DNA from: a virus
Length of the DNA: 37,013 nucleotides
Reading direction: 5' to 3' (one strand)
IMG/VR virus record: IMGVR_UViG_3300041809_000603
Coordinates: 1-37,013 of that record
A program made the translations under genes and the position numbers. Numbering within the stretch: the stretch's first letter is position 1; each line of letters opens with the position of its first letter. Under the pieces are notes generated by a model, which saw nothing but the letters and a program-made list of their open reading frames with translations, did not search any database and had not been told where the DNA came from. Shown here in pieces: positions 1 through 30,297 of the stretch.

Positions 1-151
1 GGCGCCCGTTGACGATCTTATTGATGATCGTCTCGTCGTCGGATGAAAGACCCAAATACTTCCACACCAGCCGAGACAACTCTCGCTGCTTGATGCCCAT
101 GGCGTCAACTGCGGAGCGAACCCACTCTTGCGCTGGGGTTAATTTACCCAT
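1..151 (-). CDS. Phage repressor, CI-like (partial, N-terminal part)
   Basis: The leftward reading frame starts at ATG 151-149 and runs off the left edge, so only about 50 N-terminal residues are visible. They begin MGKLTPAQEWVRSAV and form an amphipathic helical segment with an N-terminal helix-turn-helix character (an IKQRELSRLV helix, then a polar recognition-helix candidate ending near KIVNGR). The divergent position opposite a Cro-like gene, across an operator-rich gap, is that of the maintenance repressor of a temperate phage. Such repressors usually carry a C-terminal S24/LexA-like autoprotease domain, which would lie outside the window and cannot be confirmed. No clear Shine-Dalgarno sequence precedes the ATG, so the message may be leaderless. 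Confidence 0.65.
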   Translation of the reverse strand, partial: MGKLTPAQEWVRSAVDAMGIKQRELSRLVWKYLGLSSDDETIINKIVNGR

Positions 152-158
152 GGAAAAC

Positions 159-179
159 GCGTAGCTTTTTACGCTACGC
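159..179. promoter_or_regulatory. Operator-like inverted repeat 1
   Basis: GCGTAGC (159-165) and GCTACGC (173-179) form a perfect 7-bp inverted repeat with a 7-bp spacer. It lies 7 bp upstream of the leftward repressor start, where binding would block repressor transcription or translation. It shares the half-site CGTAGC with the dyad at 218-236, which argues for one DNA-binding protein (repressor and/or Cro). Confidence 0.6.
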
Positions 180-195
180 CCGTCTGTGGTGGAAA

Positions 196-236
196 TCGCT
201 ACGAAGGGGCTTGCAATCGTAGCGAATATCGCTACG
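196..236. promoter_or_regulatory. Operator-like inverted repeats 2 and 3
   Basis: CGTAGCGA (218-225) and TCGCTACG (229-236) form a perfect 8-bp inverted repeat with a 3-bp spacer, ending 12 bp before the preferred cro ATG at 249. A further half-site TCGCTACGA (196-204) is the exact complement of TCGTAGCGA (217-225), so a second, wider dyad is possible. With the dyad at 159-179 this gives about five half-sites in 78 bp, a lambdoid-style operator layout between repressor and cro. I could not place convincing -35/-10 boxes. Confidence 0.6.
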
Positions 237-248
237 GTGCTGCCCCGC

Positions 249-512
249 ATGGAACCCGCACAGACAATCATCAAGAAATTTGGGGGGCCGACCGCGCTCG
301 CGGAGCTCCTTGGTCTGCACCGAACTCGCGTCTCAGCTTGGCAGCGATCGCGCAATTCCGGCGGTACTGACGGCCGTATCCCGCAAGGGCATCACGACCG
401 GCTCATGAAACTTGCCGTCGAGCGGGGTTTCCCATTGCAGCCCGCCGACTTTTATCCGCAGCCGCGGGCCAGTGCAGGGCGCCCAAGGGCCGGCAAAAAG
501 CGAGCCGCCTAG
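249..512 (+). CDS. Cro-like helix-turn-helix regulator
   Basis: This 87-residue protein starts at ATG 249. The same frame is open back to an earlier possible start at 186, but that would run through the operator repeats, so 249 is preferred. An early helix-turn-helix is visible at residues 10-35 (FGGPTALAELLGLHRTRVSAW), followed by a linker and the segment RIPQGHHDRLMKLA. This arrangement is typical of small Cro-like/YdaS-like phage regulators that bind operators and open the lytic pathway. The C-terminus is basic (PRAGKKRAA). It is the first rightward gene and faces the repressor, which supports the assignment; the exact role is inferred from position and fold. Confidence 0.7.
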   Translation: MEPAQTIIKKFGGPTALAELLGLHRTRVSAWQRSRNSGGTDGRIPQGHHDRLMKLAVERGFPLQPADFYPQPRASAGRPRAGKKRAA

Positions 513-528
513 CCATGCTCGCCCGCTC

Positions 529-624
529 TCACCATCCGAACAACGGCGCGCCCGTAAAGGCGATCGCGGCGCCTGCAAAGAAGGCCAGGCCCACAAGGAC
601 TCTGAATTTTCGACGTGTTGTCAT
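529..624 (-). CDS. Possible 31-residue membrane peptide, leftward
   Basis: A short leftward frame lies in the gap between the cro-like gene and the next regulator. It encodes three basic residues (MTTRRKF), then one hydrophobic stretch (RVLVGLAFFAGAAIAFTG), and ends in LFGW. The pattern suits a single-span inner-membrane peptide with a cytoplasmic N-terminus. No good ribosome-binding site is visible, and the strand opposes all neighbours except the repressor. It may be a chance frame. Confidence 0.28.
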   Translation of the reverse strand: MTTRRKFRVLVGLAFFAGAAIAFTGAPLFGW

Positions 625-654
625 GATGCGGCACCACGGAGAAGTTGTTGCGTC

Positions 655-939
655 ATGCGTCAGCCAATCGGCACTAACGGGCACGCGTCAAAGCCTTCCG
701 GCGAACAAAACGGCGGATTTTCCGGCTTTAGAACAAAGGTGCATGGGCACGTTCGCCATCACCTGTCGGCCTTCGGCCGCGCTGTGCGCGCCGTCTGGCC
801 CGTCAAGCCGGCGTTGCATCTTTCGCAGGTTGCCGACTGCTCCGAGCGGTCCGCGCAATATCAGATCGACGGCGAGCGCAAGCCCACAGCGCGCGCCATC
901 CTGGCCGTCAACGAGGCGATGCTCAGCGACGATCAGTGA
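655..939 (+). CDS. Small helix-turn-helix regulator (second early regulator)
   Basis: This 94-residue protein starts at ATG 655, preceded by GGAGAA about 11 bp upstream. The frame continues further upstream but there lacks protein-like composition. The C-terminal half contains a helix-turn-helix-like segment (LHLSQVADCSERSAQYQIDGERKPT) in which a short recognition helix is followed by a DGER turn. A final helix follows (ARAILAVNEAML). Its position after cro matches a CII-like or accessory early regulator. No partner domain is visible, so it probably acts as a dimeric DNA binder; the target is unknown. Confidence 0.55.
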   Translation: MRQPIGTNGHASKPSGEQNGGFSGFRTKVHGHVRHHLSAFGRAVRAVWPVKPALHLSQVADCSERSAQYQIDGERKPTARAILAVNEAMLSDDQ

Positions 940-987
940 ACCCCGCTTCATTCCTAGTTCGTTTCAGCCGGCGGCATTCGTACCTGA

Positions 988-1017
988 CGGCGGCTGATCT
1001 GACGCCGCCGGGCTTTT
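988..1017 (+). terminator. Terminator-like hairpin after the second regulator
   Basis: CGGCGGC (988-994) pairs with GCCGCCG (1004-1010) around a 9-nt loop and is followed by GGCTTTT. The 7-bp all-GC stem with a short T-run resembles a weak intrinsic terminator. It sits 49 bp after the stop of the regulator at 655-939 and could end or attenuate the first early transcript. Confidence 0.45.
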
Positions 1018-1099
1018 CGCCCTAGTTGGCCCGGCGGCGAAAGCTTTGTGTCTGCGTGCGTTTTTCCTCGCCGATTCACGTGAAACGGGACACGCTCGC

Positions 1100-1342
1100 A
1101 TGAGCTTCGCCAATCCATTTCCTCCACCACGACCGCGGCTGACCGGCGCGCCATCGCGCCCAACACGCCAATGGCGCGCAGCGGTGCTCGATCATGATGC
1201 AGCTCGCGCCGAACTGGGGAGTCCGGCGGGAGGCGAGGGCGGCCGAAGCTCTGGCGAGCGGCCCGGCCGCCCTCGCTTAGCCCCTCAGCTTGGGCTGCGT
1301 CCGATCCCGTTAAGCGAACGAGAACGGGAGGTTTCTCTATGA
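1100..1342 (+). CDS. Possible small protein, unknown function
   Basis: This 80-residue frame begins MSFANPFPPPRPR. It is rich in Pro, Arg and Gly and contains the protein-like segment RQWRAAVLDHDAARAEL. Its stop overlaps the ATG of the next gene (ATGA at 1339-1342), a sign of translational coupling. Against it, third codon positions are less GC-biased than in neighbouring genes, and a 13-bp perfect inverted repeat lies inside. If it is not a gene, the 399 bases from 940 to 1338 hold only hairpins. Confidence 0.35.
   Translation: MSFANPFPPPRPRLTGAPSRPTRQWRAAVLDHDAARAELGSPAGGEGGRSSGERPGRPRLAPQLGLRPIPLSEREREVSL
1233..1276. repeat. Long perfect inverted repeat (13-bp stem)
   Basis: GCGAGGGCGGCCG (1233-1245) is perfectly complementary to CGGCCGCCCTCGC (1264-1276) across an 18-nt loop, and the stem can extend with a G-T and an A-T pair. 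No T-run follows, so it is not a textbook intrinsic terminator. It lies 62 bp upstream of the small membrane-protein gene at 1339 and would form a very stable structure in the early transcript. Confidence 0.6.
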
Positions 1343-1455
1343 GAGAAGCCGCCACAGCAGCCACGCTTTCAATCGTAGCCGCGGCTTTGGCGCTCGCGGG
1401 GGTTTGCTTGGCGGGAGCGTTTCTGCCGGCCCTGGGGCGGATTTTGGGGCCGTGA
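1339..1455 (+). CDS. 38-residue single-span membrane peptide
   Basis: A strong ribosome-binding site (GGGAGG at 1325-1330) precedes ATG 1339. The peptide begins MREAATAATLSIVAAALALA. It has one hydrophobic segment (about residues 9-32) with a short polar N-terminus and ends in GRILGP. The stop overlaps the next gene's start (TGATG at 1453-1457), so it is likely co-translated with the GapR-like protein. The function is unknown. Size and position would also suit a small early membrane effector such as a superinfection-exclusion peptide, but nothing in the sequence proves that. Confidence 0.55.
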   Translation: MREAATAATLSIVAAALALAGVCLAGAFLPALGRILGP

Positions 1456-1934
1456 TGAGCAAAACTCCGCGCACCATCACCCGCATCCAGGTCGCCGACG
1501 CGATCGACGATCTCGATGACCAATTGGCGGATCTGCAGGAGATCAAAAAGACGGTCTATCAGAACTACCGCGGCGTGCTCGCCTCGCGTGGTTTCAGCAA
1601 GGAAGCGATCAAGGCTGAGGCCTCAACGCTCAAGCTCGCCATCCGCCAGCGCCGCAACATCGAGAAAGACCCCGCCAAGGCCAAGGAACGCCGCGGGCTG
1701 TTCGACGAGATCCTGACCGAAATCACAGCCGTTCCCTCGCGCGCACGCGCGCGAGAGGGAAGTGCGGGCGACGACCGGCCGCTGTATGCCGACATTGCCG
1801 CTGCTGCCGCAACGGCGGCAAAGCTCGCCGAAGAAGACGAAGCCACGCCGGAAGATCGGCGCAAGGCGCACATCAAGGCCGCGGCCGATCGCGCCGAGGC
1901 GCGTTCGAAAAGCGCCGGTCCCAGGACGCATTGA
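1455..1934 (+). CDS. GapR-like (DUF2312-like) coiled-coil DNA-binding protein
   Basis: This 159-residue protein begins MSKTPRTITRIQVADAIDDL. Residues about 15-100 form a long charged coiled coil followed by a basic helix (KLAIRQRRNIEKDPAKAKERRGLFDEIL). It matches the order seen in alphaproteobacterial GapR: a heptad helix, a KxVYxxxxxxGF-like turn (here KTVYQNYRGVLASRGFSKEAIK), then an RxRxxDP-like helix. GapR binds overtwisted AT-rich DNA and supports replication and transcription, so a phage copy could act on phage or host DNA. The C-terminal third (Ala-rich, about residues 108-155) is extra relative to a typical 80-90 residue GapR. An imperfect GC-rich palindrome near 1733-1761 encodes the linker between the two parts. 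The assignment is by pattern, not by search. Confidence 0.55.
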   Translation: MSKTPRTITRIQVADAIDDLDDQLADLQEIKKTVYQNYRGVLASRGFSKEAIKAEASTLKLAIRQRRNIEKDPAKAKERRGLFDEILTEITAVPSRARAREGSAGDDRPLYADIAAAAATAAKLAEEDEATPEDRRKAHIKAAADRAEARSKSAGPRTH

Positions 1935-1943
1935 GGAGCTTCA

Positions 1944-2120
1944 ATGAGCATGGACGAACAGACACGGCGCCCGCATGCGCCAATTCTTCTCCGCGATGAG
2001 GCAGTTGAAGCTCGACGCAGGCGTTGCGCCAAGCTCGCAGCCGAAGCCGACGCCCTCTTCGACGCTCAGAAGAAAGCCGAAGAGGCGATCACGCTTGCCG
2101 AGCTGCACGAGCAGCAGTGA
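1944..2120 (+). CDS. Small charged coiled-coil protein
   Basis: This 58-residue protein starts at ATG 1944 with GAGGAG 8-9 bases upstream. It begins MSMDEQTRRPHAPILLRDEA and continues as one long Arg/Ala/Glu-rich helix (EARRRRCAKLAAEADALFDAQ). Its stop overlaps the GTG start of the methyltransferase gene (GTGA at 2117-2120), so it is part of the same operon. I do not recognise a family. Confidence 0.6.
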   Translation: MSMDEQTRRPHAPILLRDEAVEARRRRCAKLAAEADALFDAQKKAEEAITLAELHEQQ

Positions 2121-2737
2121 AGATCCGCACCCCACGGACGCGCGCGCCAGGAAACGTCAAGGGCAACCGGCAGCTCTGGCGCCGCGATCCAAACGACTTT
2201 TATATCGAACCTTTTTGGTGCGGTGAGCGCCTCTTCGCGGTCGAGAAGTTCGACGGGCCGATTTGGGATCCGGCCGCCGGCATCGGGCGCATCATCAACG
2301 CCGCGCTCAAGGCTGGCCACGCCACGAGCGCCACCGATCTGATCGCCCGGCCCAAAACGATCTGGCCTATCAAGAAGCTCGATTTTTTGAAGACGCGAAA
2401 GATCGCGCGCGGCGAAAACATCGTCTGCAACCCGCCATTCAAGATCGCCGACGCCTTCGTGAAACACGCGCTCAAGCTCGGTGCTGCAAAGATCGCCATG
2501 CTCATGCCGGCTGGCTGGATCCACGGCGACGAGCGATCGCGCTGGCTCGAGAAAACGCCGCTCCGCTGCATTTATTTCCTGGCGCCGCGGCCGAGCATGC
2601 CGCCCGGGCGCGTCATCCTGGCCGGGATTGCGCCCGGCAACGGCACCACGAATTTCGCCTGGTTCGTTTGGGAACGCGGCTATCGCGGGCCTTGGAATGC
2701 GGCGGTGCTTCGGCGGGAGGCTGCAGCATGCCGGTAG
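2117..2737 (+). CDS. DNA (adenine/cytosine N) methyltransferase
   Basis: This 206-residue protein has an SAM-binding motif I at about residues 51-59 (DPAAGIGRI), an acidic motif II-like position (ATDL, 72-75) and the catalytic tetrapeptide NPPF at 105-108. It is therefore an amino-methyltransferase of the (D/N)PP(Y/F) class, most often N6-adenine specific. It is close to a single-domain catalytic core, and no separate target-recognition domain is obvious. No restriction endonuclease gene accompanies it, so it looks like an orphan phage methylase, used to evade restriction or mark DNA in replication or packaging. The GTG start at 2117 overlaps the preceding stop; an upstream extension of the frame would overlap that gene entirely. 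Confidence 0.75.
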   Translation: MKIRTPRTRAPGNVKGNRQLWRRDPNDFYIEPFWCGERLFAVEKFDGPIWDPAAGIGRIINAALKAGHATSATDLIARPKTIWPIKKLDFLKTRKIARGENIVCNPPFKIADAFVKHALKLGAAKIAMLMPAGWIHGDERSRWLEKTPLRCIYFLAPRPSMPPGRVILAGIAPGNGTTNFAWFVWERGYRGPWNAAVLRREAAACR

Positions 2738-3450
2738 ATGTTGCCACGCTCAAGAAACTCGCTGCGGCGGGCGCGACTGCCGACATGGTAATCGCGGCGC
2801 TCGAGGGACAGATCGCCCCCGATGCGGAAAAGCGCCGGAAGGCGCGTGACCGTCAGGCCAAGCGTCGTGCTCGTGTGACATCGCGTGACTCAGCGTTACC
2901 GAGCGTGACATCGCGTGACACGACTCAAGATGTTGAGGCCGTGGCCGGGGAAGGATCGCAAGGGAATGTGGCCGCGGCGGAAATTCAGAAGCCATCCGAA
3001 ACCGACCTAAAAGAAAGATCCCCCACACCCCCTAAAGAAAATACTACTACCTCGAATCCTCTCCAATTGGATTTACTCAGAGAAGAAAAAGATTCGAGGA
3101 ACGCGCGCGCGCGAGGCAAGCAGCGTGCGACGCGATTGCCCGACGGCTGGATGCCATCGCTCGACGACCTCAACTTCGCCCGCGATCTTTTCCCGGAAGC
3201 CAAAATCAACCTCGAACGCGAGAAGTTTCGCGATTACTGGCATGCGCGCGCCGGTCCGAAAGCCGTCAAAGCGGACTGGTCGGCGACCTGGCGCAATTGG
3301 CTTAGGCAAGCTTTGGAACGAAGCGACGGAGGTGAAAATGGAGAGCATCGGAACACTAGCGGCAACGGCTCTGGAGCGAATTCAGGAAAGCGAACGCTTG
3401 CCGTCATCGCCATCGAATCTGCCCGCCGCGCAGGCCAAGCGCGATCATGA
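2728..3450 (+). CDS. Replication initiator / DnaT-like protein
   Basis: This 240-residue protein starts at ATG 2728, overlapping the methylase gene by 10 nt. It has three parts. An N-terminal helical segment with a basic stretch (EKRRKARDRQAKRRARV) spans about 1-52. A low-complexity linker (about 53-125) contains a VTSRD repeat. The C-terminal domain (about 130-212) has FRDYWHARAGPKAVKADWSATWRNWL, the signature of DnaT-like C-terminal domains, which bind single-stranded DNA and help load helicase. The linker is encoded by regularly spaced GYGTGAC repeats followed by an AT-rich stretch, as in lambda O where the origin lies inside the gene. I infer a phage initiator acting with host helicase; no phage helicase or polymerase gene is seen in the window. 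Confidence 0.65.
   Translation: MPVDVATLKKLAAAGATADMVIAALEGQIAPDAEKRRKARDRQAKRRARVTSRDSALPSVTSRDTTQDVEAVAGEGSQGNVAAAEIQKPSETDLKERSPTPPKENTTTSNPLQLDLLREEKDSRNARARGKQRATRLPDGWMPSLDDLNFARDLFPEAKINLEREKFRDYWHARAGPKAVKADWSATWRNWLRQALERSDGGENGEHRNTSGNGSGANSGKRTLAVIAIESARRAGQARS
2844..3099. other. Candidate replication origin: iterons plus AT-rich DNA
   Basis: GCGTGAC occurs at 2844, 2883, 2903 and 2913, with the variant GTGTGAC at 2873. The last four fall on multiples of 10 bp, and the 15-mer GTGACATCGCGTGAC is repeated exactly at 2875-2889 and 2905-2919. Downstream, 3001-3095 is AT-rich for this genome (56 of 95 by hand count). It holds the 10-bp palindrome TCCAATTGGA (3062-3071) and a 9-bp inverted repeat CCTCGAATC/GATTCGAGG (3050-3058, 3091-3099). 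Phased direct repeats next to an AT-rich unwinding region inside the initiator gene are the lambda-type origin plan. Confidence 0.5.
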
Positions 3451-4063
3451 CGGCCTCCCGGTTTTATTTGATCGCCAGTGCGACCTGGAAATTCCAGACG
3501 CCGTCGTTTCCGATCGTGACATCGCCGGCAACGTGCGGGCGTTGCGCCGCGATCTGACCATCGTTGAGCGCGCGGTGATCGAGGCGCGTGCGGCGGCGCT
3601 GCACGACGCGCTGGCGCCGTTTGCACGTTCCGAGCGCGATCAATTGAGCGCCGATCTAGCTGCGATGCTGAGCGGCTTCCGGTTTATGCGGCAGGCGGAT
3701 GAAGCGGCGGATTCGATGCTCGAGGTCACGCTCGCCGTCCTGCGTGATTTTCCTGCGTGGGCGATCAGTAGGGCGTGCGCGCAAATGATCCGCAGCCGCG
3801 CCGAACGGCGTTTCCCTCCAAACGATACCGAGATTTTCGATGCAGCCCGCGAGGAGGTCCGGCTGCATCGCAAGTGGCTTGCCCAGGCGCAAAGGCTTCT
3901 GGAGGCGCCGGCTGAAACGAGGCGCCCACTGTCCGACGCTTGTCCGACGGCTGTCGGACACCCACCGTCAGGCCAATTGGCGCCGATCAAGCCCTGGCCG
4001 CCAAGCCCTGACGTGCTCGCCGAACTCGAAGCCCGAAAAGCCCGCAACGCCGCCCGCCAATGA
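3338..4063 (+). CDS. Replication-associated protein, possible helicase loader
   Basis: This 241-residue protein starts at ATG 3338 behind a strong GGAGGTG ribosome-binding site. It overlaps the initiator gene by 113 nt in another frame, an unusually long overlap. Residues about 60-200 are helical and end in PAWAISRACAQMIRSRAE followed by RFPPNDTEIFDAAREEV. This resembles a segment common in alphaproteobacterial phage replication proteins, of the form PxWAxxxAxxxxxRG...PxxxEIxxxA. The C-terminal 50 residues are Pro-rich. Its place after an O/DnaT-like gene suggests lambda P-like helicase loading. No Walker motifs are visible, so it is not a DnaC-type ATPase. A 20-bp palindrome lies inside the 3' part of the gene. 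Confidence 0.5.
   Translation: MESIGTLAATALERIQESERLPSSPSNLPAAQAKRDHDGLPVLFDRQCDLEIPDAVVSDRDIAGNVRALRRDLTIVERAVIEARAAALHDALAPFARSERDQLSADLAAMLSGFRFMRQADEAADSMLEVTLAVLRDFPAWAISRACAQMIRSRAERRFPPNDTEIFDAAREEVRLHRKWLAQAQRLLEAPAETRRPLSDACPTAVGHPPSGQLAPIKPWPPSPDVLAELEARKARNAARQ
3930..3960. repeat. TGTCCGAC palindromic element, copy 1
   Basis: TGTCCGACGGCTGTCGGACA (3941-3960) is an inverted repeat with 8-bp arms and a 4-bp centre. An extra half-copy, TGTCCGACGCT, sits directly before it at 3930-3940. A copy differing at one central base occurs at 7177-7196 upstream of the integrase. Here it lies in coding sequence for the Pro-rich tail of the replication protein. Confidence 0.75.
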
Positions 4064-4152
4064 TGCTCGAAGGCCTGGCTGACCTTGTGCTCGCCGGCAT
4101 CATCGCGCTGATCGTTTATGCGGCGCTGCGCACGGCCGGGATCGTGCGATGA
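4060..4152 (+). CDS. 30-residue single-span membrane peptide
   Basis: The start ATG at 4060 (or 4063) overlaps the preceding stop, and the stop overlaps the next ATG (ATGA at 4149-4152), so the frame is locked between two genes. It begins MMLEGLADLVLAGIIALIVY and ends AALRTAGIVR, a single hydrophobic helix with a positively charged end. The tight coupling on both sides is the main evidence that it is translated. The function is unknown. Confidence 0.5.
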   Translation: MMLEGLADLVLAGIIALIVYAALRTAGIVR

Positions 4153-4523
4153 AACGGATCGGGGTGCGGATCTCCGACGGGCTGCACGCCGACCTGCTGG
4201 CGTATTGCGAGCGCACCGGCTGCACACTGACCGATGCCGTCGAGACACACCTGCGCAATTCGCTCGATTCCAAGGGCTCCGATCGGCTGCTGCTGTTGCG
4301 CTTCGATGAAGGCCTTTGGGCCTGGTTTAAGGCTTACGTCACCGGGTGGGGGTTATGGGGATCGCGGGAGGAGACGGCGATCTTCATGATCCGCAGCGAG
4401 ATCATCGCGGTGCATCAGCAACCCCACATCTTGCGGGCGATCTATCCGCACCTGCCTGAGAGCATCCAAGCGGCCGTTGCCAAAATGCCACTTTTCAAGC
4501 CCCCGCCGTCAAACGATCACTAG
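4149..4523 (+). CDS. Ribbon-helix-helix-like protein
   Basis: This 124-residue protein begins with MKRIGVRISDGLHADLLAY and then CERTGCTLTDAVETHLRNSL. That is a beta strand plus two helices in the order expected of CopG/Arc-type ribbon-helix-helix DNA-binding proteins (residues about 1-40). The remaining 84 residues (LLLLRFDEGLWAWFKAYVTGWGLWG onward) are an uncharacterised Trp-rich helical domain. It may be a small transcriptional regulator of the early operon; the partner domain and target are unknown. Confidence 0.5.
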   Translation: MKRIGVRISDGLHADLLAYCERTGCTLTDAVETHLRNSLDSKGSDRLLLLRFDEGLWAWFKAYVTGWGLWGSREETAIFMIRSEIIAVHQQPHILRAIYPHLPESIQAAVAKMPLFKPPPSNDH

Positions 4524-10812: not shown

Positions 10813-10953
10813 AAATCCTTGAAGACTTCGCCGCTGCAACCGCCGTCCCCCCCACGCGCGGAATTTTTTTGGCCGATTTGAATTTTTGAAAAACTTTCAG
10901 ACCACCGCGGCGTCTGAAAAACAATCAAAGAAACCACACCCGGAGCGCTTTAG
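10813..10953. other. Candidate cos-region gap with inverted repeat
   Basis: This 141-bp gap between the HNH and small terminase genes is locally AT-rich. It contains TTTCAGAC (10895-10902) and its exact complement GTCTGAAA (10912-10919) around CACCGCGGC. In HNH/cos phages the cohesive-end site usually lies close to these genes. No end sequence can be proved from the window; a small-terminase operator is an alternative. Confidence 0.35.
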
Positions 10954-11268
10954 ATGCCACGAGGCGGAGCGCGCCCAGGCGCGGGCCGAAAGAAAGGCGG
11001 CAAGAACGAGCGCAAGCTCGAAGCGCCGTCGCCCGAAGGTGAGACCGCACTGCAATATCTGCACCGGCTCATGCGAGATCCCAACATCGACCCAATTCGC
11101 CGCGATTGGGCGGCCAAGATGGCCGTGCGCTTCGAACAGAGGGCGGCTGCCGCAGCTGCCGCCGGCCAGCCGGGCAAGAAAGCCGCGGCCGAGCAAGCCG
11201 CGCAAACTGCCGGACAGGGTAGCGAATGGGGCGACGATCTCGATACGTCGAGCTCGTCGGTTAATTAG
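10954..11268 (+). CDS. terS: Terminase small subunit
   Basis: This 104-residue protein begins MPRGGARPGAGRKKGGKNER, the basic Gly/Pro/Arg N-terminus common to many phage small terminases. It continues with a helical segment (TALQYLHRLMRDPNIDPIRRDWAAKMA) that mediates DNA recognition and oligomerisation in this family. The C-terminal third is Ala/Gln-rich and low complexity. It lies directly before the large subunit. It should recognise the packaging site and regulate the large subunit's ATPase and nuclease. Confidence 0.8.
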   Translation: MPRGGARPGAGRKKGGKNERKLEAPSPEGETALQYLHRLMRDPNIDPIRRDWAAKMAVRFEQRAAAAAAAGQPGKKAAAEQAAQTAGQGSEWGDDLDTSSSSVN

Positions 11269-20370: not shown

Positions 20371-20799
20371 ATGGCGGACGGATCCAGCGGGCCGACGGGC
20401 CCGACCGGCGCAACCGGCGAGACGGCGGCGACCGGAGCAAGCGGCGAAACCGGAGCGACCGGGGCACCGATCGGGGCGAGCGGCGCGACGGGTGAAACCG
20501 GCGCGACCGGCGCCGTCGCGGCGATCGAGGCCGCGCAGACCGAGCCGGTCGATCAACCGGCGCCGGCGCCGACGCCTCCCCCGCCGCCCGCGCATCATCC
20601 GGCGCCGCCGCACCGCAGCCTTTTCGAGCTGCACCTGCGCCACCGCGACGGCCGTATCGGCCGCCTCTGCGGCATCAGGCACAAGGGCCGCGCCATCATC
20701 GCGGTGCAACTGCAGCTGCCGCCAAAGCGCAATGCCAGGCGCGGCGAGCTCACCGAATGGCTGCAGCCGGACGATCTGACCGAGCACGAGCTGGACTAA
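20371..20799 (+). CDS. Collagen-like phage protein
   Basis: This 142-residue protein has three parts. Residues about 5-48 are collagen-type Gly-X-Y triplets (GPTGPTGATGETAATGASGE...), with one interruption near GAPIGA. A Pro/Ala-rich hinge (PAPAPTPPPPPAHHPAPP) follows, and then a compact C-terminal domain of about 60 residues (FELHLRHRDGRIGRLCGIRH onward). Collagen-like repeats form triple-helical stalks in many phage fibres. Here the gene sits among head genes, so a trimeric head fibre is likely. The C-terminal domain could be the trimer base or the binding tip. Confidence 0.7.
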   Translation: MADGSSGPTGPTGATGETAATGASGETGATGAPIGASGATGETGATGAVAAIEAAQTEPVDQPAPAPTPPPPPAHHPAPPHRSLFELHLRHRDGRIGRLCGIRHKGRAIIAVQLQLPPKRNARRGELTEWLQPDDLTEHELD

Positions 20800-26742: not shown

Positions 26743-26951
26743 AGGCCGAGCACAAGGTGAGCGAGGCCGAGATTTTCAGTTACACGCCGCTGCAGCTGTT
26801 CGCCTACGTCGAGCTCGTCAACGCGCGGCTCAATCGCATGTATGCCGCGGACCTTTACGACCGCGCGGTCGCTGCGCAGGGCGGCTTGAGCGAGATCAAT
26901 TCGCGCATCCGCACTTACGCGCGGTTAGGCGAGCCCCATGCCAAAAGTTGA
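26284..26951 (+). CDS. Tail assembly chaperone, -1 frameshift fusion (GT-like)
   Basis: If ribosomes slip back one base on T_TTT_TTC (26610-26616), translation continues in the -1 frame to the stop at 26951. This gives about 222 residues: 111 from the first frame and 111 from the second. The second part ends with a clear helical segment (AIELLKAEHKVSEAEIFSYT, LQLFAYVELVNARLNRMYAADLYDR) typical of the T part. This frame also has a local ATG at 26601, so separate expression is an alternative. In lambda, HK97 and most long-tailed phages such fusions guide tape measure assembly. Confidence 0.6.
26610..26616 (+). other. Slippery heptamer for -1 frameshift
   Basis: T TTT TTC (codons CCT TTT TTC in frame zero) is a classic X XXY YYZ heptamer, allowing tRNA re-pairing one base back (TTT TTT). 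It lies in the 26284 gene, well before its stop at 26740-26742, and the -1 frame is open from before this point to 26951. I did not find a clear stimulatory pseudoknot. Confidence 0.6.
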
Positions 26952-29900
26952 AATTCTCATCAACGTCATCGACGCTGACGCGGTGCGCAAGCTGCGGGCG
27001 CTGCGGCAGACGGCCCGCGATTCCTTCCAGGGCGTTCGCACCGCCGGCAAGGAAGCGCATTTCGAGCCGCCGGAAGGCGTCAACAAATTCCGCGAGAGCC
27101 TGCACGTCCTGCGCCCGCTGTTGCACAGTTTCGGCGTTGAGGTCGGCGGCCTGCGTGAATACGGCGCCGTCGCCGGCGCCGGAATGCTCGCGCTGGCCGG
27201 CGTGCTCGGTGTCACGCTCGCGGCCGCGCTGGAGAAAGTCGCCGAAGGCGCCGCCAAGGCCAAACGCGCGCTCGCCGACATTGGCGTCTCTCCGGAGGGC
27301 GTCGAGAAATCGGCGAAGGAGCTCAACGAGACGCTCGAAACCGTCGGCGGCCGCGTCGGCAAGCTGCGTGAGGCAACGCAGCCCAAAGAGTCCATCGTCG
27401 GACCTAATCAGGTCTATCACCCGACCGCGGGCATGGCACCGGAGGAGCTGCCGGCCGCTGAGAAGCAGCTCGAAAAAGTCTTTCGCGTCGGCTCGCCGGA
27501 TGAGACGACTGCCGGCAAGGAGCTCGACAAATTTCTTGAGCCCTTCACAAAAGAAAAGGGCCTGACACCTGAAATCGCACGCGCGCTGCCCGCCGGCGTC
27601 GCCAAGACATTCGGCGAGGCGGTCGGCGTCAAGATCGACGAGAAAAGCCGGCTGTCTCCGCAAAAGCAGCTCGCGCGCAGTGTCGAATCCAAGGGCGTCG
27701 ACTTTGCGAACCAACAGATCGGGTTCGGCGCCAAGCCGGAGCAATTCAATCAGCTCGTCAAGGAAGGCGCGTATATTCCCGGCGCCGAGCTGCTGCGCGG
27801 CATCCAGCAGCCGAAAAACGCAGCCGGAACTGACAAGCAATATGCCGAGCTGCAGGCCAAGGGCGTGCAATCGCTCGACGACGCGGTCGGCCACGTCAAG
27901 GCGTCGCTGACGAGCCTCGCCGAAGCGATCGGCGGCGTTCCAATCAAAGACGCCGTCCAAGGCCTCGCCGACGCGATTAAAGGCGCGGCCGAAGCAATCA
28001 CCGGCAATCCGCTTTTCCAGTTTCTCACCGGCCGCAATGACAAGGGTGAGAAGCTAAAGCCCGGCGAGCAGTCGACCGCGCCTGACCGCGTCAGACAATC
28101 GGTCGTCGATTATCTGAAACCGCAAGTGCCGGGCAGCTTCGCCGACAAGGCGTTCACCCCTGTCATTGAGTCGCTGTTCGGTCCTGAAAAACCCGGATCG
28201 ACCAGTCCGCTCGCGGCGACCGTGCCGACGAGCGAGGTGCCGGGCACTCCAGCCTATAAGGCGATCGCGCAAGCGCAAGCGCCGTCGACGCCGCCACCGA
28301 GCGGCCCGGCCCTGCCGTCACCGCTCGCCGCAGCGCTCGCGAACCGCACCGCGATCGCGCCGGAAGCCGGCACCGGCACCGCGCCAGGCTCCGGACCGGC
28401 GCCGGCTGCAGCGCAGACGACATTCGGTCCCGCGGAGCCAGGAAAACCGGCACTGGCGACAATCCCGCTGCTGCCGGCTGGTCAAACGGCCTCCTCATCA
28501 TCACCGGCAACGGCGACCGATCGCGTCGCCGCGCTGGATCCTCAGAACCGTGCGGTTTTTGCGACATTGCCGCGCGCCGATCTCCTCGCGCGCGGCTTCA
28601 CGCCAGCGGAAGCTGACGAGCTCGCACGGTCCGCGCCGGCAACCCCGTCACCGGCCTCAGCTTCGCCGTCGGCGCCCTCATCATCACCGGCGCCAGCTGC
28701 GCCACCGGCGACGCCGGCGGCATCAGAGCCCGCGCCAACGGCCTTCCCATCACCGGCAGCGACGGTCCCATCACCACCGGCCGCAGCACCACCGGCCGCA
28801 GTGCCGGCGCCCGCGGAAGCGCGCGGCGAGGATTTTTACCGGCAGCGCATCCGCGAAAATTGGCTGCGCACGCATCCCGGCGAGCCATTGCCGGCGGGAT
28901 ATGCCGAAGGCGGCGAAGTCACAGGCGACACGCTCGACTGGACCTCAGTCAAGGCTGCGGCCGCAGACGGCGGAGAGATTGCGGAAAAAACCCCGCAATT
29001 TTCCGGCGGTGGTACTGCCGGCGATACTGAGGCCGCGCAGGCGGCCGAGATGGTCCGCGTCGACATGGCCCGCGGCAAGGAAGCGGCCGAGACGGCCAAG
29101 CATGCCGCGCACGGCTATGACGCCGGCGGCGAAATCGCTGACGCAAGCGCGCCTTCGAAACTTGCGAGCGTCGAGACAACGGCTGCGCCGGCTGCGCCCG
29201 GCTTCGCTGACGGCGGCGCGATCGGATTGCCCGGCTTTGCTGACGGCGATCAAATCGACGGCGATGATCCGATCAGCCGGGCCTCGAGATCCGCCGCGGC
29301 CGCGGCGGCAGCGCCAGGCGCCATCGGCGCCGCGGAGACAGTGGCCAAGGTGCCGGTGCAGGGCGGCCAATCGGTCGCCGAGCGCTTCGGTGTTGTCGGC
29401 TCTCGCGCCGGCACACTCGACGAGCTCAAAGCCGAAGCGGCAAAATCTCGATCGCCGACGTTGAACACCGCGCCGGCGAACCTGGAGAGCGCTTATCCGC
29501 GCCAGGCGCAGCCGCCGGGCGATCCTTCAACGACGGAGAAGCAAAAAGAGACGGCCGCGGCCGAGCGGGCCGAGCAGCAACACCAGCAGCGCCGCATCGA
29601 GCGGTGGACCTCTTTTCTCCAGGGCCATTTCGCCGGCGCCGGGCCGTTCAATCCCAAAGCGTCGAATCTCGGCGCGCAAATGTTCGTCGATCGGTCGCAA
29701 CTGATCGGCGGCTTGCGCCAGGCGCGCGCGGCGTTCTCCAATGCTTTCGGCGCTGGTCGGCGCTGGTCGCCGGCGGGCGGCGGCACCTGGTCGGAAGGCA
29801 CGAGCTTTGCGCGCGGCGGTCCGATCCGCGGGCCCGGCACCAGCACCAGCGATTCCATCGTCGGCGAATTCGAGCGCGGCGGCTTCATTCTCAAAGCGAG

Positions 29901-30297
29901 CGCCGCGCTCCGCGCCGGACGCTCGAAACTCGATCATCTCCACTCGCTCGCCGGCATGGCGAGCGGCGGCAAGATCATGCTGCGCGTGTCGAACGGCGAG
30001 GAGCATTTCACCAGTTTCGAGACGCAGCGCATCGGGCTCGCGAACCTGCAGACGCTCAATCGCGCCGACGGTGGTCCGGTCAGTCTCACCGACGAGATCC
30101 CGTCGCCGGTGCCGTTTCCCGGCAAGGGCGACGACAGTCCCGCGACGCGAGAGTCCGGCTACGAGCTGCATCTTCACATGCCGGGGGGCCAGGCGGTGCC
30201 GGTTTCCACCGATCGGGATTCGCTGCAGCGTGTGGAGCGCGCGGCCGTGTTTGATCGTCTGCTCAACATCGTTCCCAATCCGGACTCGGTGCGCTAA
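26938..30297 (+). CDS. Tape measure protein
   Basis: This 1119-residue protein starts at ATG 26938, overlapping the chaperone frame by 14 nt. It has an N-terminal helical segment, a hydrophobic stretch (about 75-98; GAVAGAGMLALAGVLGVTLA) that could insert into host membrane, and helical regions to about 400. Residues 420-630 are Pro/Ala/Ser/Thr-rich (long runs such as SPASASPSAPSSSPAPAAPP) and likely disordered. The C-terminal third has ADGGEI/AEGGEV-type Gly repeats and the tape-measure ending FARGGPIRGPGTSTSDSIVG...FERGGFIL. Its length suggests a tail of roughly 170 nm if the usual 0.15 nm per residue holds; the disordered part makes that uncertain. Confidence 0.85.
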   Translation: MPKVEILINVIDADAVRKLRALRQTARDSFQGVRTAGKEAHFEPPEGVNKFRESLHVLRPLLHSFGVEVGGLREYGAVAGAGMLALAGVLGVTLAAALEKVAEGAAKAKRALADIGVSPEGVEKSAKELNETLETVGGRVGKLREATQPKESIVGPNQVYHPTAGMAPEELPAAEKQLEKVFRVGSPDETTAGKELDKFLEPFTKEKGLTPEIARALPAGVAKTFGEAVGVKIDEKSRLSPQKQLARSVESKGVDFANQQIGFGAKPEQFNQLVKEGAYIPGAELLRGIQQPKNAAGTDKQYAELQAKGVQSLDDAVGHVKASLTSLAEAIGGVPIKDAVQGLADAIKGAAEAITGNPLFQFLTGRNDKGEKLKPGEQSTAPDRVRQSVVDYLKPQVPGSFADKAFTPVIESLFGPEKPGSTSPLAATVPTSEVPGTPAYKAIAQAQAPSTPPPSGPALPSPLAAALANRTAIAPEAGTGTAPGSGPAPAAAQTTFGPAEPGKPALATIPLLPAGQTASSSSPATATDRVAALDPQNRAVFATLPRADLLARGFTPAEADELARSAPATPSPASASPSAPSSSPAPAAPPATPAASEPAPTAFPSPAATVPSPPAAAPPAAVPAPAEARGEDFYRQRIRENWLRTHPGEPLPAGYAEGGEVTGDTLDWTSVKAAAADGGEIAEKTPQFSGGGTAGDTEAAQAAEMVRVDMARGKEAAETAKHAAHGYDAGGEIADASAPSKLASVETTAAPAAPGFADGGAIGLPGFADGDQIDGDDPISRASRSAAAAAAAPGAIGAAETVAKVPVQGGQSVAERFGVVGSRAGTLDELKAEAAKSRSPTLNTAPANLESAYPRQAQPPGDPSTTEKQKETAAAERAEQQHQQRRIERWTSFLQGHFAGAGPFNPKASNLGAQMFVDRSQLIGGLRQARAAFSNAFGAGRRWSPAGGGTWSEGTSFARGGPIRGPGTSTSDSIVGEFERGGFILKASAALRAGRSKLDHLHSLAGMASGGKIMLRVSNGEEHFTSFETQRIGLANLQTLNRADGGPVSLTDEIPSPVPFPGKGDDSPATRESGYELHLHMPGGQAVPVSTDRDSLQRVERAAVFDRLLNIVPNPDSVR

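Follow-up and report, generated by a model that had tools for sequence, protein, structure and literature searches.

Known and probable origins within initiator genes

Replication origins located inside initiator genes are already known for phages lambda, P22, and L (PMC8022706) and for the plasmid gene repC (PMC3155836), and one has been proposed for phage KIRK (PMC7924643). We analyzed the IMG/VR virus record IMGVR_UViG_3300041809_000603, of which the whole stretch of 37,013 bases is referred to here as the window. One of its genes, a predicted replication initiator, carries an array of short phased repeats (iterons) and, after them, an AT-rich tract. From this anatomy we consider it very likely that the window holds a theta-type phage origin embedded in its own initiator gene and working like lambda ori/O. 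A sequence-only reading of the same DNA had proposed such a lambda-style plan, and the computational results support it: iterons lie mid-gene, the AT-rich tract follows, and the arrangement is conserved in relatives. The accompanying view that the plan had not been described was not upheld, as phage L gene 18 (PMC8022706) and gene 4 of the Bartonella run-off replication (ROR) locus (PMC3610622) had already been read as lambda-like origins.

Lambda ori consists of mid-gene iterons within gene O with an AT-rich tract alongside, a layout also seen in the window, and in lambda the gene next to O encodes the helicase loader (PMC7466680, PMC5043065). The iterons themselves differ, with four inverted-repeat units of ~19 base pairs (bp) bound by dimers in lambda versus five direct 7-bp units at 10 bp in the window. 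The proteins also differ; the window initiator matched no O-like PHROG in a scan to E 1 (which returned 3992, 1408, 2447, and weaker replication families), and its C-terminal domain is DnaT-like in predicted fold. Gene 18 of phage L and of P22 likewise contains repeats within the initiator gene. In phage L these are six imprecise 11-bp repeats, TGTCCAACGGA, of about one helical turn, and they have been proposed as the origin (PMC8022706); the iteron sequence differs from that of the window, and the likeness is one of repeat layout. The repC gene of repABC plasmids, an alphaproteobacterial replicon, is also similar in layout, with oriV and an AT-rich region within the initiator gene, but it has no iterons (PMC3155836). 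Francisella phage KIRK ORF43 resembles the window in its proposed lambda-like origin, with repeats in a 240-amino-acid replication gene that adjoins a G39P-inhibitor-like gene. However, KIRK is a low-GC phage, ORF43 is annotated as Phg_2220_C, and its origin was proposed by sequence only (PMC7924643).

The iteron array

The gene and its repeats are as follows.

2728-3450, plus strand: replication initiator gene, 240 amino acids (ATG at 2728; Shine-Dalgarno-like GGGAGG read just upstream; PHROG 3992/1408/2447)
2873-2919, plus strand: iteron array GYGTKAC, with units at 2873, 2883, 2893, 2903, and 2913 in exact 10-bp steps
2844-2850, plus strand: outlying iteron GCGTGAC, 29 bp ahead of the array and one base off phase

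The word GYGTGAC is present at 2844, 2873, 2883, 2903, and 2913, as the sequence-only reading had listed. That reading had overlooked GCGTTAC at 2893, which fills the in-phase gap and results in a 5-unit array. The exact 15-bp repeat it had also listed is present (2875-2889 = 2905-2919) and is produced by the array itself. A spacing of 10 bp is about one helical turn.

Because 10 is not divisible by 3, neighboring iteron copies are read in different frames (codons through the array: CGT GTG ACA TCG CGT GAC TCA GCG TTA CCG AGC GTG ACA TCG CGT GAC), and a peptide repeat therefore cannot account for the 10-bp unit. The peptide VTSRD is present twice, 10 codons apart, as would be expected if the repetition served the protein and that of the DNA were a by-product. 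However, adjacent copies of the 10-bp unit encode different peptides. When the gene was recoded synonymously, with the protein sequence fixed and the phage's own codon usage, five in-phase copies were reproduced in 0/20,000 recodings and four copies in 1/20,000. A 10-bp chain of even two copies was obtained in 0/300 first-order Markov simulations of the whole window. The array exceeds chance and coding constraint.

Phased arrays in other viral contigs

At least 119 stretches with three GYGTKAC units at 10-bp steps were found when viral contigs were scanned. All counts given below for spacings of 9, 10, 11, and 12 bp, and for the proteins that carry arrays, are among the matches listed in each scan. 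Array counts alone give no preference for 10 bp; only array location does. For spacings of 10 and 11 bp, 54/94 and 32/96 arrays, respectively, were in initiator-like genes versus 4/102 for 9 bp and 9/96 for 12 bp, or 86/190 versus 13/198 when pooled (non-redundant, p ~2e-19), using an initiator reference set partly drawn from the 10-bp scan. With protein-selected references alone, the counts were 45/94, 18/96, 8/96, and 4/102 for 10, 11, 12, and 9 bp, respectively (p ~4e-12). A permuted-motif control gave 31 stretches in total, and 2 of its 22 non-redundant stretches were in initiator-like genes. Extra copies beyond the selected core were found at plus or minus 10, 20, and 30 bp, with 27 at +10 versus 0.2 expected.

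Sixty-six non-redundant arrays were in open reading frames (ORFs) of at least 150 amino acids, mostly at 0.3-0.7 of the gene. Arrays of the same motif at 9- or 12-bp spacing are also common in other viral genes and are mostly VTP/GVT peptide repeats, which speaks for the idea of a repeat maintained for the protein. Against that idea, the 66 arrays occupy all three frames and both orientations, and with the recoding results we find it barely credible for the window.

The protein alignment comprised 66 sequences, namely 65 array ORFs and the window initiator. Thirty-four of the 66 matched phrog_3729 'replication initiation protein' and 14 matched a DnaD-like helicase loader family; others matched O-like, primosomal, and replisome-organiser families. 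Phased arrays are also present in Pseudomonas phage phi1, Escherichia phage Tritos, and Aeromonas phage pAEv1818. These three phages have a second GTCAC set in 10-11-bp phase, apart from the linker array and within the codons of the N-terminal domain (SASRNVTRGH.. motif), at 237-268 (L250, phi1), 129-160 (L252, Tritos), and 201-232 (L253, pAEv1818) of the ORF. The phi1 initiator ORF (L250 593-1597, KT887557.1) is unannotated in the public record, where a small overlapping ORF is annotated instead.

Conservation in relatives

Prophage-type relatives were obtained by genome scan. Those sharing both the short N-terminus and the C-terminal domain are from Ensifer (L169, L221, and L229), Rhizobiales (L170), Sinorhizobium (L174), and Sphingomonas (L189 = L137). 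The sequence-only reading would have been refuted by loss of the repeats in relatives that keep the protein, and the opposite was observed: GTGAC/GTCAC repeats are retained where the protein is, nearly all of them helically phased, and their position after the basic segment and before the C-terminal domain is that of the window array. Their spacing is 10-11 bp except in L170, which has just one clear GTGAC and one GTCAC. L122, with the same N-terminus, likewise keeps GTKAC repeats.

Phased chains in the non-redundant C-terminal family (51 members) were present in 4/4 short-N members versus 1/47 others, and in 2/548 background segments of 570 bp. Same-orientation GTKAC pairs no more than 45 bp apart, in these genes and the three phages named above, were spaced only at 10-11, 20-21, 29-31, and 39-41 bp. 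An unbiased lag test on the 51 relatives with any iteron was weak, with no single lag prominent. Elsewhere in the C-terminal family the linker often has another repeat, such as TCGCGAG or GCGGACGCAAT; the iteron therefore seems to follow the N-terminal part rather than the C-terminal domain. The linker repeats of L002-L008 and L133-L138, which have the same C-terminal domain, are GCGGACGCAAT, TCGCGAG, GGGGTAAAGACGTG, and GGGAC/GTCCC, and because of these other short repeats the data suggest that each N-terminal type may have its own iteron.

Judging from gene order and a reading of the sequence, a member of the C-terminal family appears to be located at the Bartonella ROR locus. This member, read as ROR gene 4, has ~44-46% identity over the domain and sits upstream of a primase-helicase. 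In published descriptions the gene is lambda-O-like and has palindromes and a dip in GC content, and DNA amplification peaks there (PMC3610622, PMC2697382). It differs from the window in having another N-terminal domain and no phased GTGAC array.

The marker-frequency peak at this module (PMC2697382) also bears on another explanation, in which the array has a different cis function (partition, incompatibility, packaging, or a hot spot for recombination) and lytic replication starts mainly at another site. Consistent with that explanation, the array sits where the exchangeable N-terminal and C-terminal modules meet, a position that would suit a hub of recombination, and the evidence for the window comes from sequence alone. 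The Bartonella peak argues against it, as do the tie of the array to replication initiator genes in many phages, the AT-rich tract that comes after the array, and a terminase gene ~8 kb away. We consider a different cis function very improbable.

The AT-rich tract

Three features lie 3' of the array.

2999-3093: AT-rich tract, presumed unwinding element (60% AT)
3008-3042, plus strand: A/C-rich element taaaagaaagatcccccacaccccctaaagaaaat, resembling an element 3' of the repeats in Ensifer/Sinorhizobium relatives
3050-3099: 9-bp inverted repeat (3050-3058/3091-3099) around the palindrome TCCAATTGGA (3062-3071), not conserved in relatives

The sequence-only reading had estimated, by hand, ~95 bp at ~59% AT. 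This was accurate, with 59.4% over 3000-3095, and in the AT profile of all 37 kb the maximum for a 95-bp stretch is the 60% of 2999-3093, compared to a window mean of 36.6%. The second most AT-rich spot is at 10842-10964 (0.589), with T and A runs, ahead of the terminase gene. The A/C-rich element has a counterpart in the Ensifer/Sinorhizobium group, in which the stretch GATAAAGAAAGGTCCCCCACACCCCCTAAAGAAATTAAC follows the repeats. The palindrome and inverted repeat of the earlier reading also exist. However, an inverted repeat of equal length occurred in ~1% of Markov nulls and that of the window was absent from relatives; we regard it as weak evidence for an origin.

Across 53 array genes, mean AT content reached a peak of +0.149 (standard error 0.012) at 40 bp beyond the array, reading 5' to 3' along the gene. 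The orientation of most of these arrays is against that of the gene, which means that the AT tract tracks gene direction, not iteron direction. On the coding strand, 16/53 genes had a C-run element, CCCC-n0-6-CCCC, 20-260 bp 3' of the array, and none had it at equal distance upstream.

The initiator protein and the candidate reader

By PHROGs, the gene is a phage replication initiator, with its predicted product matching primosomal/replication initiation protein families (phrog_3992, E 2e-17; phrog_1408, E 1.9e-16). Two of its parts, and the gene that follows it, are listed here.

2830-2874, plus strand: codons of a basic segment, residues 35-49 KRRKARDRQAKRRAR, inside the long helix 18-55 predicted by AlphaFold2; candidate DNA-reading part
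3118-3327, plus strand: codons of a DnaT-like single-stranded DNA (ssDNA)-binding domain, residues 131-200, from a structure match and Pfam matches of relatives
3338-4063, plus strand: next gene, overlapping the initiator gene; candidate helicase loader (Inhibitor_G39P match very weak, E 0.08; lambda P-like position)

Pfam gave nothing significant for the initiator, and Pfam DnaT (PF17948) did not match it even at E 10, whereas 15/43 aligned relatives matched DnaT (best 6.8e-7). A PDB sequence profile search gave only meaningless matches near 0.035, Foldseek against PDB alone gave no significant match, and the N-terminal 49 amino acids as query found no relatives. The AlphaFold2 model, built from an alignment of 43 sequences, has a helix at 5-13, the long helix at 18-55, a linker of low confidence, and a C-terminal domain of three helices modeled with confidence (predicted local distance difference test ~97). 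There is no winged helix in the modeled N-terminus, where the alignment is shallow. The top structural matches of the C-terminal domain were the DnaT ssDNA-binding domains 4ou6 and 6aeq (Z 6.6, root-mean-square deviation 3.3-3.4, 64-66 residues); a Z of 6.6 is moderate, yet it is independently backed by the Pfam matches of relatives. The earlier description of the initiator as DnaT-like thus stands for the predicted C-terminal fold and does not extend to the whole protein, which is not a DnaT. Like DnaT of the E. coli and Salmonella primosome, it has a C-terminal ssDNA-binding fold in the model; unlike DnaT, it has a different N-terminus and a putative internal origin.

The only nearly invariant residues in the 66 aligned array ORFs are two arginines of a basic motif, R42 and R47 in the window. 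The motif R-x4-R-x-[RK] was encoded no more than 45 amino acids upstream of the array in 42/66 compared to 18/239 other (background) stretches. In the protein-selected set, the motif and GTKAC arrays went together (4/5 versus 5/46, p 0.002), but those four members form one related group and are therefore not independent. In L060, a winged-helix representative, the N-terminal domain is similar to the winged helix of CRP (Z up to 7.4), and the basic motif forms a separate helix. Candidate readers of the iteron would be the basic helix, plus the winged helix where present; in the model, the window type has only the basic helix.

Alternatively, the array could be a true DNA-level site for another protein, either a host factor or a phage regulator, such as an operator of the initiator and loader genes. 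The GTKAC word is found in genes with unlike N-termini (CRP-like winged helix versus short helix plus basic helix), for which a common third reader would be a simple explanation. However, the arrays are mid-gene and away from promoters, no sigma-70-like promoter was found in 1-4200, the AT-rich peak comes after the arrays, and the phasing-specific association is with replication-initiation genes. The placement of the basic motif just upstream of the array also speaks against a third reader, which we consider unlikely.

A broader proposal can be put forward tentatively, as a possibility we hold to be somewhat doubtful. GYGTKAC at one-turn spacing could be a shared origin 'word' of many unrelated-looking phage initiator families. 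The N-terminal winged helices, which vary, would then not read it; the reader would be a basic helix that the families have in common (R-x4-R-x-R/K, with some likeness to the basic region of bZIP proteins) and whose codons immediately precede the array. The genes would be built round a fixed DNA hub of iterons and AT tract, swapping helicase-recruiting C-terminal domains (DnaT-like, DnaD-like, and others).

As to the flanking genes, assignment of the 3338-4063 product as a helicase loader is speculative, given its basis in position and the E 0.08 match, and no homologue of this gene was found beside the initiators of relatives. Upstream, 2117-2737 is a phage DNA methyltransferase-like gene (phrog_799, E 3.6e-43) with a 10-bp overlap with the initiator start. 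Two other repeats are present in the window: a 10-bp tandem repeat at 29746-29770 (TCGGCGCTGG twice and a bit) in ORF 26938-30297, which looks like a simple duplication, and collagen-like G-x-T coding repeats at 20380-20560.

Proposed mechanism and significance

Several observations weigh against an origin at this locus. The AT tract is not adjacent to the array but starts ~80 bp past the last iteron, farther off than the typical AT peak at 40 bp from the array center, and in most other families the iterons point the other way with respect to the AT tract than they do in the window. Among window-type relatives the iteron is present in just 2-4 copies, and the winged helix of many GTGAC-array initiators is missing from the window-type model. 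GC skew, which the sequence-only reading had suggested as a check, had no inflection near 2.9 kb and no origin signature; skew is therefore uninformative here.

Sequence anatomy is what the analysis gives, and the steps of an internal origin can be drawn from lambda (PMC7466680, PMC5043065). Via the N-terminal/basic-helix part, initiator molecules would bind along one face of the DNA, where each helical turn offers one GYGTKAC iteron. The nucleoprotein complex would then strain and melt the downstream AT-rich tract, and the exposed single strand could be held by the C-terminal DnaT-like domain, as its fold suggests. The replicative helicase would be loaded at the melted tract, perhaps, more speculatively, aided by the product of the overlapping 3338-4063.

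As far as the open-licence literature was searched, three elements are new: the 7-bp one-turn iteron, a DnaT-like initiator in which no winged helix is recognised, and the use of a single iteron word by many initiator families. The search found no description of them, which is not proof of novelty. Most temperate phages have no mapped origin. A DNA-level signature of phased iterons within the initiator gene would allow sequence-based origin calls in many phages and prophages, and it raises a testable question about these modular initiators, namely which of their parts recognizes a word that is constant while the flanking protein domains change.
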